A stretch of 64,000 bases of DNA, taken from contig JAOABX010000004.1 of assembly GCA_026418175.1 (NCBI GenBank), positions 62,001 through 126,000 of the forward strand, in the 5' to 3' direction. Positions 18,039 to 23,437 of the stretch are shown in pieces. Position 1 is the first letter of the stretch. The number at the start of each line of letters is the position of its first letter. The translations under genes were made by a program, and so were the position numbers. The notes under the pieces were generated by a model. It had not been told where the DNA came from. It searched no databases and worked only from the letters and a program-made list of their open reading frames with translations. Source of the stretch: Flavobacteriales bacterium. Lineage in GTDB: Bacteria; Bacteroidota; Bacteroidia; CAIKAF01.

Positions 18039-18317
18039 AATTCGTTAATCATCAAAAATTTCAAATGGTTAATTGTACAAATTTGCTGCCATTGGAATAA
18101 GCTTGTCATTTTGGCAGTGAAGAAAATTTTTAAAAAAATCAGAAAAGCATGCAGCAAAATAAAATTCATGGAGTCTATATGAATTAAAGCATGCTTCCTC
18201 TTAAATGTTTAAAAACACCTATATCATAGTTGTTAAAGTAATCATTAAGGGGTTTTTGAGCGGATTTTCAAAGAATATTACTTAATGAAAAAGATGTAAG
18301 TTTACCTACTCTATGGT

Positions 18318-18863
18318 ATGAAACTTTCAACTGATGAAATTATTGAAGGATGTAGGAAGGGTAAACAACTGGCTCAAAGTGAGTTGTTTCGGTTGCATGC
18401 CCCCAAACTGTTGGGAGTATGCTTCCGTTATGTCGGAAGCCGTGAATTAGCAGAAGATTTATTGCAGGATACGTTTGTGAAGATTTTTGCAAATATCCAT
18501 TCGTATCGTGGAGATGGTAGTTTTGAAGGGTGGATGCGTATCATTGCAGTTAATACCTGTCTGAGCTGGATTAGAAAAAATAAAAACTTAGCTCGTGAAA
18601 TTGAACTGAACCAAAAACATGATAGAATGTTTGAAGAACAGGAAGAGTCGGAAGTTTTTCCTATCACTGCTGATGTGTTAATGCAACAAATTTCAACATT
18701 ACCCGATGGTTACAGGGTGGTATTAAACTTATTTGCTATCGAAGGATTCAGTCATAAGCAAATTAGTGAAAAACTTGGGATTAGTGAAAGTACTTCCCGA
18801 TCACAATATTCACGGGCTAAGAGTTTTTTATCTAAAAAAGTTATGGAACTCATTCAAAAATGA
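18318..18863 (+). CDS. ECF-type RNA polymerase sigma factor
   Basis: A 181-residue sigma factor with region 2 (AEDLLQDTFVKIFANIHSYR, and GWMRIIAVNTCLSWIRK) and region 4 (LPDGYRVVLNLFAIEGFSHKQISEKLGISESTSRSQ, given here as LPDGYRVVLNL and ISEKLGISESTSRSQ). It is followed 9 bp downstream by a membrane/barrel protein that is the likely regulator. The target regulon cannot be deduced. Confidence 0.95.
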   Translation: MKLSTDEIIEGCRKGKQLAQSELFRLHAPKLLGVCFRYVGSRELAEDLLQDTFVKIFANIHSYRGDGSFEGWMRIIAVNTCLSWIRKNKNLAREIELNQKHDRMFEEQEESEVFPITADVLMQQISTLPDGYRVVLNLFAIEGFSHKQISEKLGISESTSRSQYSRAKSFLSKKVMELIQK

Positions 18864-18872
18864 TTTCACATC

Positions 18873-20321
18873 ATGGAACACAATGAATTTGAAAAATACC
18901 TCCGCGAACAGGCTGATAAATTTTGGTTGGAGCCTGCACCCGGATCATTTGGCCAGGTAATGGAGGCCATGCAGCGGCAAAAAAAGCGTCGTCGCTTTTT
19001 ATTTATTTTATTCTTTTTGTTGTTTATACTAAGTGGAGGAAGTATGTTTTTATGGTGGATTACACATACCCCATTTACATCAATAGAAAATCATCAGGTT
19101 GTAACAAATAGTTTAGAAAACCATATAGAAATACCCCATAATAAATCGCTGAGAAACCAAGAGCATAAAGCCGTATCTAAAAAAAATAAGTCTGAATCCA
19201 ATGTATCAACGTATGATTTAAAAGAATTGAGTGTGGCAGAAAATAATAAATTAATACCTTCAGTTTCATCCAACATTTGGAATCAATCAAAACCTTCTGA
19301 AATTATTACCAGAAAAAAGTCTCTAAAACAAAAAAATAATTCTAACAAATTAGCGATAAAGAAAGATTTTGACACAAATGATAAAACATATCAACCTATC
19401 CATGCACAAGAAGAGAATTACTTTAAAATAACAACTGAAAATGTAAATTATACTACAAATATCATCCCAGAATCAACATCTGTAACAGATACGAGTGATA
19501 GTTTAACACAAAACAATGTATTTAATAAAAATATTTCAAATCAAAAAAATGATGAAGTAGAATTTATAACAGATACTCCTAAGATTAATGTCAAATCCCG
19601 ATTTTGGGATCCCAACCGGACAAAAAAGTGGTTTGTTTCTGCGTGGTTTAATGGGTTTGCAGCCGGAAGTGTATTTGAACAAAATCCAACACTTACTGAT
19701 ACTGGGTTAGTAAATAAATCAGAAAATTATGCTGATTACCGAAATTATTATAATACACTACGGTTTGGTTTTTCTGCCGGTGGTTCTATTGGATTTATGC
19801 CCATTACATATCTTACCATTGAACTTGGTTTTCAATATACGGAATTTACAACACTTGAAAAACCGCTTGGATATCCCAATCAAGGAGGTGCAGGTTCCAC
19901 TCCTACTGATGTTTTTCCATTAACAGTACTTCCTTCACCCGAAGCTCAGGTATATGCTTCCAATTTTAAATTGTTACAAATACCGTTGTTATTTACTTTC
20001 CATGCGAACTTTGGAAAATCAGCCATGCATTTATCTGCCGGTCCTATTTTTAGTTATACCAATAGTTTTAAAGGGTACACATTATTCAACAGCTATAATT
20101 CTTTACATTTTAGTACACAGGTTGACAGTTCAAATGTACAGCGTTTGGGGATAGGGTTTCAATCCAAGCTATTATACTCATACCTGATTTTACCCAATTT
20201 TAGTTTGTATGCGGGGCCAACGTTTCAGTACCGGTTTAATTCGTTGTTTGTAAACTCATACATAATTCGCCAAAAACCTTACTTCATTGGAGTAGAAACC
20301 GGATTACGATTTCATTTTTAA
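18873..20321 (+). CDS. membrane-anchored protein with C-terminal outer-membrane beta-barrel-like domain; candidate sigma regulator
   Basis: A 482-residue protein in four parts. A short charged N-terminal head (1-40, EFEKYLREQADKFWLEPAPG) is followed by one transmembrane helix (about 41-64) and a 170-residue Asn/Lys/Ser-rich linker of low complexity (about 70-240). The final 240 residues have beta-barrel-like strands (LRFGFSAGGSIGFMPITYLT, YLTIELGFQYTEF, FIGVETGLRFHF at the end). The head has the size and position expected of an anti-sigma domain, and the gene directly follows an ECF sigma gene. The architecture recurs next to sigma genes in Bacteroidota. That it controls the sigma factor is an inference. 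Confidence 0.7.
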   Translation: MEHNEFEKYLREQADKFWLEPAPGSFGQVMEAMQRQKKRRRFLFILFFLLFILSGGSMFLWWITHTPFTSIENHQVVTNSLENHIEIPHNKSLRNQEHKAVSKKNKSESNVSTYDLKELSVAENNKLIPSVSSNIWNQSKPSEIITRKKSLKQKNNSNKLAIKKDFDTNDKTYQPIHAQEENYFKITTENVNYTTNIIPESTSVTDTSDSLTQNNVFNKNISNQKNDEVEFITDTPKINVKSRFWDPNRTKKWFVSAWFNGFAAGSVFEQNPTLTDTGLVNKSENYADYRNYYNTLRFGFSAGGSIGFMPITYLTIELGFQYTEFTTLEKPLGYPNQGGAGSTPTDVFPLTVLPSPEAQVYASNFKLLQIPLLFTFHANFGKSAMHLSAGPIFSYTNSFKGYTLFNSYNSLHFSTQVDSSNVQRLGIGFQSKLLYSYLILPNFSLYAGPTFQYRFNSLFVNSYIIRQKPYFIGVETGLRFHF

Positions 20322-22049: not shown

Positions 22050-22781
22050 ATGTTTTTAATACAAATTGATATTTTTTCTAAGGTAAGGTATCTTTTATAT
22101 CTTATCTTTTTTTTTAGCAATAATTTAAATGCCCAAAAAACTTGTTGGTGTTATGAATATCGCTATGAAACTACTGATACTTTTAAACTTTTAGTTGTAG
22201 ATACTAGTTTCTTTGAAACACCATTTAAGATTAAAGCTCAATATAAATACATATATGATGATCCCTATATTATAATTTTACCCGCTAAGCTCGATAATGG
22301 AAAGTTTTTTGACATTTCTCTTCCCATGCATATAAACGTAAAACCAGCGGATACAATGGTTTATGATATGAATAGTCATACTTTTTATATTAAATCTTCA
22401 AATTCGTTTGTTAAAACCTGCATTGATAATAAACCGCTGGATTTATCGTTGATTAAAAGCAATAAAAAGAATGTCGTGAAGTTAATTAATTCGGTAACGA
22501 TAGAAAATAAATCCAATATTCCCGAGTCTTGCCTAATTCCTGAGTTGGCCATCTATAAAATCAAAGGAATGGGACAAATTACTGCATATAATTCATTTAA
22601 AAAAGCTAAACTGGTAAGGTATTCTATTTGTAGTTGCTTAGATGCATCGTTAAAATCTAAGTTAAAGGATATTTTTAACTCATTGGCTAAACAAGCACAA
22701 ATAAAATGCTTTCCAAATAGTTTTATGCACTATCAACCTATGTTTGATTTTAGTAAAACTCAAAAAATTGAAGACCCTTGA
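22050..22781 (+). CDS. hypothetical exported protein, possible paralogue of the next gene
   Basis: A 243-residue protein with a signal peptide ending NNLNAQ at about residue 29. The mature start is Cys-rich (KTCWCYEYRYETTDTFKL). The body is beta-rich with no recognised domain. The YEYRYETTDTF block resembles YEYEVQVKDTF in the next protein, and both have a proline/hydrophobic block beginning IP-S or IPES in the C-terminal half. This suggests an old duplication. The 15-bp spacing from the previous gene supports an operon. Confidence 0.6.
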   Translation: MFLIQIDIFSKVRYLLYLIFFFSNNLNAQKTCWCYEYRYETTDTFKLLVVDTSFFETPFKIKAQYKYIYDDPYIIILPAKLDNGKFFDISLPMHINVKPADTMVYDMNSHTFYIKSSNSFVKTCIDNKPLDLSLIKSNKKNVVKLINSVTIENKSNIPESCLIPELAIYKIKGMGQITAYNSFKKAKLVRYSICSCLDASLKSKLKDIFNSLAKQAQIKCFPNSFMHYQPMFDFSKTQKIEDP

Positions 22782-23437
22782 AAGCACTATGTTTTTATAT
22801 TTTAATAATGATACATCCTATTGCCTTTGGGCAGGATGTTCAATACAACCCACAGGTTTTATACTACGAGTATGAAGTTCAGGTAAAAGATACGTTTTAT
22901 CTTAAATCTGCTAATACCTGGTTGCCATTAAATAATTCGCATGAAAAAGTTTTTAAATGTTATGTAAGTGATGACTGGTTGATGTATGTAGAATATATGG
23001 TGAGTAGAGATATTGAATCAGGCAAGATATATCATCTTGTTCCTACAAAAGATAAATCCGGTGATACCATTCAATTTTATTATTTCCCCAAACAAATCTA
23101 CAAGCATGGAGAGGAATTTTATAAAGCAGAGCCATCGTTTAGCACAACACATCAACGTTGTTTTTTGACAGCGATGCAAACTGAATTTGAGCACCACGAT
23201 ACAATTCCCTCATCGGTTGTATTTCCGCCCTATGCATGGCTGGGAGGTGGGTTTGGAAAAATATCAGATGTATATCTCTACGCAAGGTTAACGAAAATAG
23301 CTCATCAACCTATCCCCTGGAAAAAAGAATTGATAGAGAATGTGATTAGCCAGTTCAATGCTATTCCGGAAACGGAGGTAAACATCAGAAAATATGTTAT
23401 TGAAACAGCTGCCCATCACCACCGTCAAAGGCAGTAA
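22778..23437 (+). CDS. hypothetical exported protein with TTG start
   Basis: A 219-residue protein. Reading from TTG at 22778 gives a signal peptide (MKALCFYILIMIHPIAFGQ) that overlaps the upstream stop (TTGA). The first ATG, at 22808, leaves the signal truncated, so the TTG start is preferred. No known domain. The N-terminal YEYEVQVKDTF block resembles the upstream protein. The gene ends 4 bp from the convergent aspartate kinase gene. Confidence 0.58.
   Translation: MKALCFYILIMIHPIAFGQDVQYNPQVLYYEYEVQVKDTFYLKSANTWLPLNNSHEKVFKCYVSDDWLMYVEYMVSRDIESGKIYHLVPTKDKSGDTIQFYYFPKQIYKHGEEFYKAEPSFSTTHQRCFLTAMQTEFEHHDTIPSSVVFPPYAWLGGGFGKISDVYLYARLTKIAHQPIPWKKELIENVISQFNAIPETEVNIRKYVIETAAHHHRQRQ

Follow-up and report, generated by a model that had tools for sequence, protein, structure and literature searches.

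In the FecI/FecR system, an inner-membrane anti-sigma factor passes the state of the outer membrane to an ECF sigma factor; a TonB-dependent barrel serves as receptor there and is a separate protein from the anti-sigma factor. For Bacteroidota, a dual membrane-spanning type of anti-sigma factor (Dma) has been published, comprising an anti-sigma domain, a helix, a disordered tether and a C-terminal barrel; according to the accessible text, Dma proteins adjoin an ECF21 sigma factor, the effects of anti-sigma loss depend on its sigma factor, and the authors propose that Dma2 senses a glycan (PMC13088901). PMC12045153 does no more than cite the Dma1 paper. A P. vulgatus protein of the same head-to-barrel layout is described, in the accessible part of PMC9308784, as probably activated by envelope stress, and in the available portions of both reports loss of the relative in P. 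vulgatus and B. thetaiotaomicron turns genes on or has effects that need the sigma factor (PMC9308784, PMC13088901).

The window is the whole stretch of 64,000 nucleotides analyzed here. It contains an ECF sigma gene and, 9 bp downstream, a gene for a 482-residue partner; the ORF coordinates agree with the original prediction of this pair. On one side the pair is flanked by a divergent grpE-dnaJ (named by eye) and on the other by prs. We consider it quite probable (roughly 0.85) that the pair consists of a sigma factor and a Dma-type anti-sigma factor, which probably form an autoregulated envelope sensor. The features are as follows:

18150..18178, + strand: candidate ECF promoter TGCAGC-N17-GTCTWW and possible autoregulation site, within the 279 bp separating grpE from the sigma gene
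18318-18863, + strand: ECF sigma factor, 181 aa, in the clade of Das2
18873-20321, + strand: predicted Dma-type anti-sigma partner, 482 aa, starting 9 bp after the sigma gene
18873..18992, + strand: partner residues 1-40, head, presumed sigma-binding (head HMM homology)
18996..19052, + strand: residues 42-60, transmembrane helix preceded by KKRRR (hydropathy 2.53)
19068..19616, + strand: residues 66-248, disordered tether (pLDDT below 50 throughout)
19620..20318, + strand: residues 250-482, predicted eight-stranded beta-barrel with terminal Phe (model and structure comparison)

Elsewhere in the window, positions 22050-23437 hold two adjacent uncharacterised ORFs of 243 and 219 aa, with no Pfam family over the cut-off and no NCBIfam match.

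The partner has no Pfam match over the cut-off and no NCBIfam match at E up to 1, and a solved-structure search with the full-length protein gave nothing under E 0.63. Its AlphaFold2 model was built from a 7-row alignment (mean pLDDT 57.3, pTM 0.45). The charged N-terminal head and single transmembrane helix of the original prediction agree with the hydropathy peak at residues 42-60 and with the modeled helices (3-16, 25-53 and 56-65). The predicted linker is indeed flexible, with pLDDT under 50 over residues 66-248, but its length is nearer to 183 than to the proposed 170 residues; N, S, K and T are abundant in it and glycine is absent. The C-terminal domain, foreseen as barrel-like, is modeled as eight long strands between residues 253 and 481, in blocks mostly at pLDDT 78-95. 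Its nearest folds are small outer-membrane barrels, namely OprF, NspA, OmpA and OmpW (Z 16-18.5; Foldseek, VIA-align), with Z 18.5 and rmsd 2.0 over 131 for OprF, Z 17.6 for NspA and Z 17.1 for OmpA. A soluble periplasmic fold, which had been named as one outcome speaking against the prediction, was not obtained from the full-length model; the C-terminal part was modeled as an eight-stranded barrel of outer-membrane type rather than as a soluble domain. The barrel model, together with the published Dma layout, supports reading the partner as a probable one-chain trans-envelope sensor.

Two known classes of regulator were considered and rejected. The head is basic and its residues 1-40 contain no Cys, and no FecR or zf-HC2 domain was matched in the partner by Pfam at E up to 1, which argues against a FecR-type or zinc-binding class I anti-sigma factor. 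A TonB-dependent transducer disagrees with the eight-stranded model, and no TonB-dependent receptor was matched in the partner by Pfam at E up to 1. The window protein's own barrel has no Pfam barrel match; among six barrel-tailed relatives, PF13568 is over the cut-off in two and below it in two more.

The sigma factor itself matches Pfam Sigma70_r2 (3.5e-18) and r4_2 (8e-15). For comparison, Dma2 orthologs were located via DUF4943, the family of dma2's neighbor, which has matches in 7 of 295 genomes. Two of these seven (G086 and G046) have the dma2 operon order: sigma factor, Dma2, DUF4943, then two further proteins (224 or 216 aa, and 312 aa), the genes at the BT_1556 and BT_1555 places being assigned by order and size. 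The window sigma factor shares 37-39% identity with the two Das2 orthologs, vs 21-30% with five other ECF-type sigma factors of its own genome. It forms one clade with the Das2 orthologs (support 99/98) in a tree whose rows were picked by likeness to the window sigma factor, whose outgroups are long-branched and whose bootstrap is unsettled. In a set of 101 sequences, the head HMM (see below) gave E 1e-6 for the window partner and 1.1e-7 for the Dma2 of G086; the Dma2 of G046 reached just 0.055, which we count against the Dma reading. Two more partners from G086 and G046, outside the training set, scored 1.1e-6 and 4.3e-6. By homology, the partner thus appears to have an N-terminal anti-sigma domain. 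One profile comparison between the barrels of the window partner and Bacteroides-type Dma2 gave a probability of 97.1 and E 6.5e-11. The Dma2 model shows the same domain order (helices, residues 67-196 at pLDDT under 50, then eight strands between 200 and 355) at lower confidence, with mean pLDDT 53.4 and no residue at 90.

Because the layout is identical to the published definition, and head, barrel and sigma clade agree with those of the Dma2/Das2 orthologs, we assign the window partner, on sequence grounds, to the already published Dma family as a further member. The original prediction described the arrangement as recurrent in Bacteroidota and of no known mechanism. Its occurrence there is matched by the same published layout, but the arrangement already has a name, Dma, and some genetics exist. 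An uncharacterised Flavobacteriales-type sigma pair is now placed in this family, together with a testable putative promoter.

Since a sequence search with the window protein reached just 6 of 60 genomes (its own included), a profile was needed to follow the family. A census was taken from the first 89 matches obtained when 119 genomes were searched for sigma factors like that of the window. Four of them were skipped (G031:C1, G038:C5, G029:C17 and the second site of G120:C9), and the window, L018, L022, L027, L069, L072 and L073 (all barrel class by profile) were left out, so that 78 new loci were counted. At all 78, the gene following the window-like sigma gene encodes a hydrophobic segment close to the N terminus; no such segment was found in the next ORFs after two more distant sigma factors (L177 and L178, 33% identical), which are excluded from the tail counts. 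With 38 barrel-class heads as its training set, the head HMM recovers all 38 other partners, namely 26/26 with a type IX secretion system (T9SS) sorting tail (T class), 8/8 short ones and 4/4 held-out barrel ones. As a background, 2 of 936 reversed ORFs passed, and eight matched ORFs outside the partner list are, by eye, further or duplicate partners. Against the Dma reading, the window (E 1.8) is missed by an HMM built from the heads of the T class, as are 8 of the 42 barrel-class heads. Head and sigma distances correlate weakly (0.318 vs a shuffled maximum of 0.233), pointing at best to co-inheritance, not to binding. The window's genome has a second Dma-type pair (L018:4923-7057, G000:C66) with a partner of 548 aa, in which the head motif occurs, by eye, twice in tandem; its counterpart L069 in G002, which is listed under the same genus as the window's genome, has one copy.

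The partners of the 78 pairs carry a barrel in 42 cases, a T9SS type-B sorting domain in 26, neither (short partners) in eight, and are truncated in two (L108 and L114, judged by eye; L106 and L149 also run off contigs). The barrel calls comprise 33 made by an HMM that was trained on 15 of these and nine made by visual inspection of the C terminus (L099, L101, L103, L105, L106, L111, L136, L173 and L174). PF13568 is present in 19 and PF13505 in 10 of the 33, possibly overlapping, and Pfam barrel models match at most three of the nine. TIGR04131 and CHU_C each match all 26 T-class partners at E up to 0.001, with a PKD domain in 15-16 of them as well; barrel models have no match in any of the 26. 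The T class spans 13 family codes, and barrel and T9SS tails coexist within one genome, for example in G030, G039 and G116.

Three of the eight short partners (L135, L155 and L169) are followed by a gene for a PF13568 barrel over the cut-off. The next genes of L124 and L146 have no Pfam match over the cut-off, that of L159 is cut by the locus end and has no match, and those of L154 and L158 look unrelated by eye. A ninth such partner, outside the 78-locus census, occurs in G006 (L025:3963-6073), where the sigma gene is followed by a 186-aa head-and-helix protein without a barrel and then by a PorP/SprF protein (PF11751, 1.2e-62); its head HMM value of 0.24 lies above E 0.01, and it was found solely by the window protein's own match. 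The next genes of 17 T-class pairs matched 13 families, PorP/SprF not among them; for the remaining nine T-class pairs, the rule used here gave no following gene within 250 bp. An apparent second sigma gene comes after the T9SS-tailed partner in two genomes belonging to one family (L142:1992-2570 and L152:925-1503). Sigma70 region 4 without region 2 at E 0.001 was found in 2 of the 17 T-class next genes, probably these same two.

On the sigma tree, whose bootstrap is unsettled, the four labels (three tails and the outgroup) require 14 changes vs 35.8 when shuffled, and at least three gains or losses of the T label are forced by well-supported branches alone. The tail type changed repeatedly on the sigma tree, while head and helix were retained. 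The published barrel-tailed form seems to be just one design out of two or more, with a T9SS tail in 26 of 78 pairs. In the titles and partial abstracts that were searched we found no description of a T9SS-tailed anti-sigma factor. As far as their accessible text goes, one report ties a T9SS CTD protein to a sigma factor by another route (PMC7712824), and another places an unclassified sigma pair of F. psychrophilum among T9SS-linked promoters (PMC9723704).

The putative promoter TGCAGC-N17-GTCTWW has a single exact match in the window's 2.68-Mb genome, upstream of the sigma gene at 18318, with 0 matches on the other strand and 0 for the reversed pattern. The form TGCAGC-N17-GTCT[AT], picked after several of its sites (G002, G006, Dma2) were known, lies upstream of sigma genes in the window, G002, G006, both Dma2 operons, L101 and L126, that is, in 7 of 92 upstream regions vs a mean of 0.03 in dinucleotide shuffles. 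G002, G006, G086 and G046 have 2-5 copies each of TGCAGC-N17-GTCTWW, one of which precedes the sigma gene, and 0-3 copies of the reversed control. With one mismatch allowed, the window's genome has 31 more matches vs 13 for the control pattern, and the window has two variant matches vs 0.74 expected; ten of the one-mismatch genome sites were inspected and resolved no wider regulon.

A family word, GCAAC-N17-CATC, chosen from an enrichment count over almost the same set of regions, is present in 28 of 92 sigma upstream regions (mean 0.03 in dinucleotide shuffles) and in none of them on the reverse strand; 20 of these 28 regions have it 40-60 bp ahead of the rule-chosen start codon. A promoter matrix exceeded the 99% null in 25/26 T-class, 7/8 short, 14/42 barrel, 2/2 truncated and 4/14 reference rows, counts that are partly circular as the seeds were drawn from the same set; the window scores below the threshold (4.57 vs 8.52). 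Judged from these sites, the sigma factor probably autoregulates its own operon, and the rise of das2 in a dma2 mutant (log2 4.54, in the accessible text of PMC13088901) fits such autoregulation. An initial promoter guess, GTAAC with CGT, was not enriched (1/81 vs 0.9) and was dropped. In G002, one exact site lies just before the ATG of a protein with a T9SS type-A tail (4.4e-05, barely past the cut-off), an isolated lead.

Under the preferred reading, the head would bind the sigma factor and keep it at the inner membrane, the disordered tether would cross the periplasm, and the barrel would be built into the outer membrane. A signal at the outer-membrane end (a ligand, damage or failed barrel assembly) may then lead to inactivation of the anti-sigma factor, probably by proteolysis; a site-2-type peptidase M50 is encoded in the window's genome, and the family is likewise present in all 14 control genomes. 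Once free, the sigma factor would use TGCAGC-N17-GTCTWW to transcribe the operon it belongs to, and might also act on other envelope genes. The anti-sigma role is assigned to the window partner by analogy, from papers on its relatives.

The C-terminal domain could instead stay in the periplasm as a sensor, making the partner an ordinary one-membrane anti-sigma factor. Barrel models can mislead, the location of the barrel is a prediction, and the 26 T-class relatives gave no barrel-model match; however, eight membrane-type strands, Z of 17-18.5 to OprF, OmpA and NspA, the terminal Phe and a tether of roughly 88-288 residues in 40 barrel-class partners (assuming a 235-residue barrel) make this unlikely. 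A role outside regulation deserves mention because of an orphan barrel in G001 (L023:1744-2565), which is 57% identical to that of the window, has a hydrophobic N terminus and lies near prs, grpE and dnaJ; at this locus no sigma gene or head stands beside it, and the one TGCAGC-N17-GTCTWW copy of G001 is on a different contig. The barrel may thus have a use of its own, and many family-profile matches fall in open frames of just about 250 aa. That the window protein is an ordinary outer-membrane protein on a membrane anchor, whose head does not regulate the neighboring sigma factor, is nevertheless very improbable: the head is kept beside window-like sigma factors despite the varying C-terminal part (38/38 outside training), and the relatives are genetically shown anti-sigma factors. 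Those experiments cover relatives only, so the partner might activate or chaperone its sigma factor rather than inhibit it, but the losses reported in the accessible text for P. vulgatus and B. thetaiotaomicron, which turn genes on or act through the sigma factor, leave this the most far-fetched of the three.

How a Dma-type protein with its sigma factor senses the envelope can be considered from the exchange of tails. As a tentative and rather doubtful proposal, these proteins may be client reporters, in which the conserved head and helix carry a tail suited to a particular outer-membrane machine. For BAM the tail would be a barrel and for T9SS a type-B sorting domain, and a separate outer-membrane protein could take its place. 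Failure of the machine would leave the tail undelivered, the anti-sigma factor would be destroyed and the sigma factor freed, each protein thereby gauging the pathway that assembles it. The T9SS-tailed partners suggest, without proving it, that they report on the export pathway of their own tail. Against the proposal, we know of no T9SS client that retains an inner-membrane anchor. Alternatively, the tail may serve as a leash whose far end needs only a firm hold in the outer membrane. The window's genome has 29 TIGR04131 matches, 24 of them over the cut-off, and both of its Dma-type pairs are barrel-tailed. These data do not separate the leash, the client-reporter proposal and the glycan sensing put forward in the accessible text of PMC13088901. 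Were the T9SS tails exported with the head remaining at the inner membrane, type IX secretion would be equipped with its own transcriptional read-out, and what Dma proteins sense would become approachable by tail exchange.

Among described systems, the window pair is most directly compared with Dma2/Das2 (BT_1558/BT_1559) of B. thetaiotaomicron, with likenesses measured on the operon-identified orthologs of G086 and G046 and not on BT_1558 itself. Dma2 resembles the window partner in its head, helix, tether and eight-stranded barrel; Das2 is likewise an adjacent sigma factor in one clade with that of the window, and a promoter-like motif is common to both. The barrels differ in sequence (about 19% identity over 149 aligned columns), DUF4943 adjoins dma2 and has no match in the window's genome, and, unlike the dma2 operon, the window pair sits between grpE-dnaJ and prs. 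EcfO/Reo of B. fragilis and M0N98_03761/03760 of P. vulgatus, likened to the window pair by published description only, also consist of a sigma factor followed by a large anti-sigma factor with a predicted outer-membrane barrel; in the accessible text the former is linked to oxidative stress and the latter to probable envelope stress (PMC9308784, PMC13114119). Another locus of the window's genome (L020:4273-5802, G000:C79), in which a sigma gene precedes genes for a 154-aa protein and for a small one that begins like a signal peptide, recalls by its order the cirYZ-spy genes of P. vulgatus, as described in the available part of PMC13114119; it has no NCBIfam match. Finally, in comparison with FecI/FecR, the window partner is a single polypeptide whose barrel is small, and it does not match FecR.
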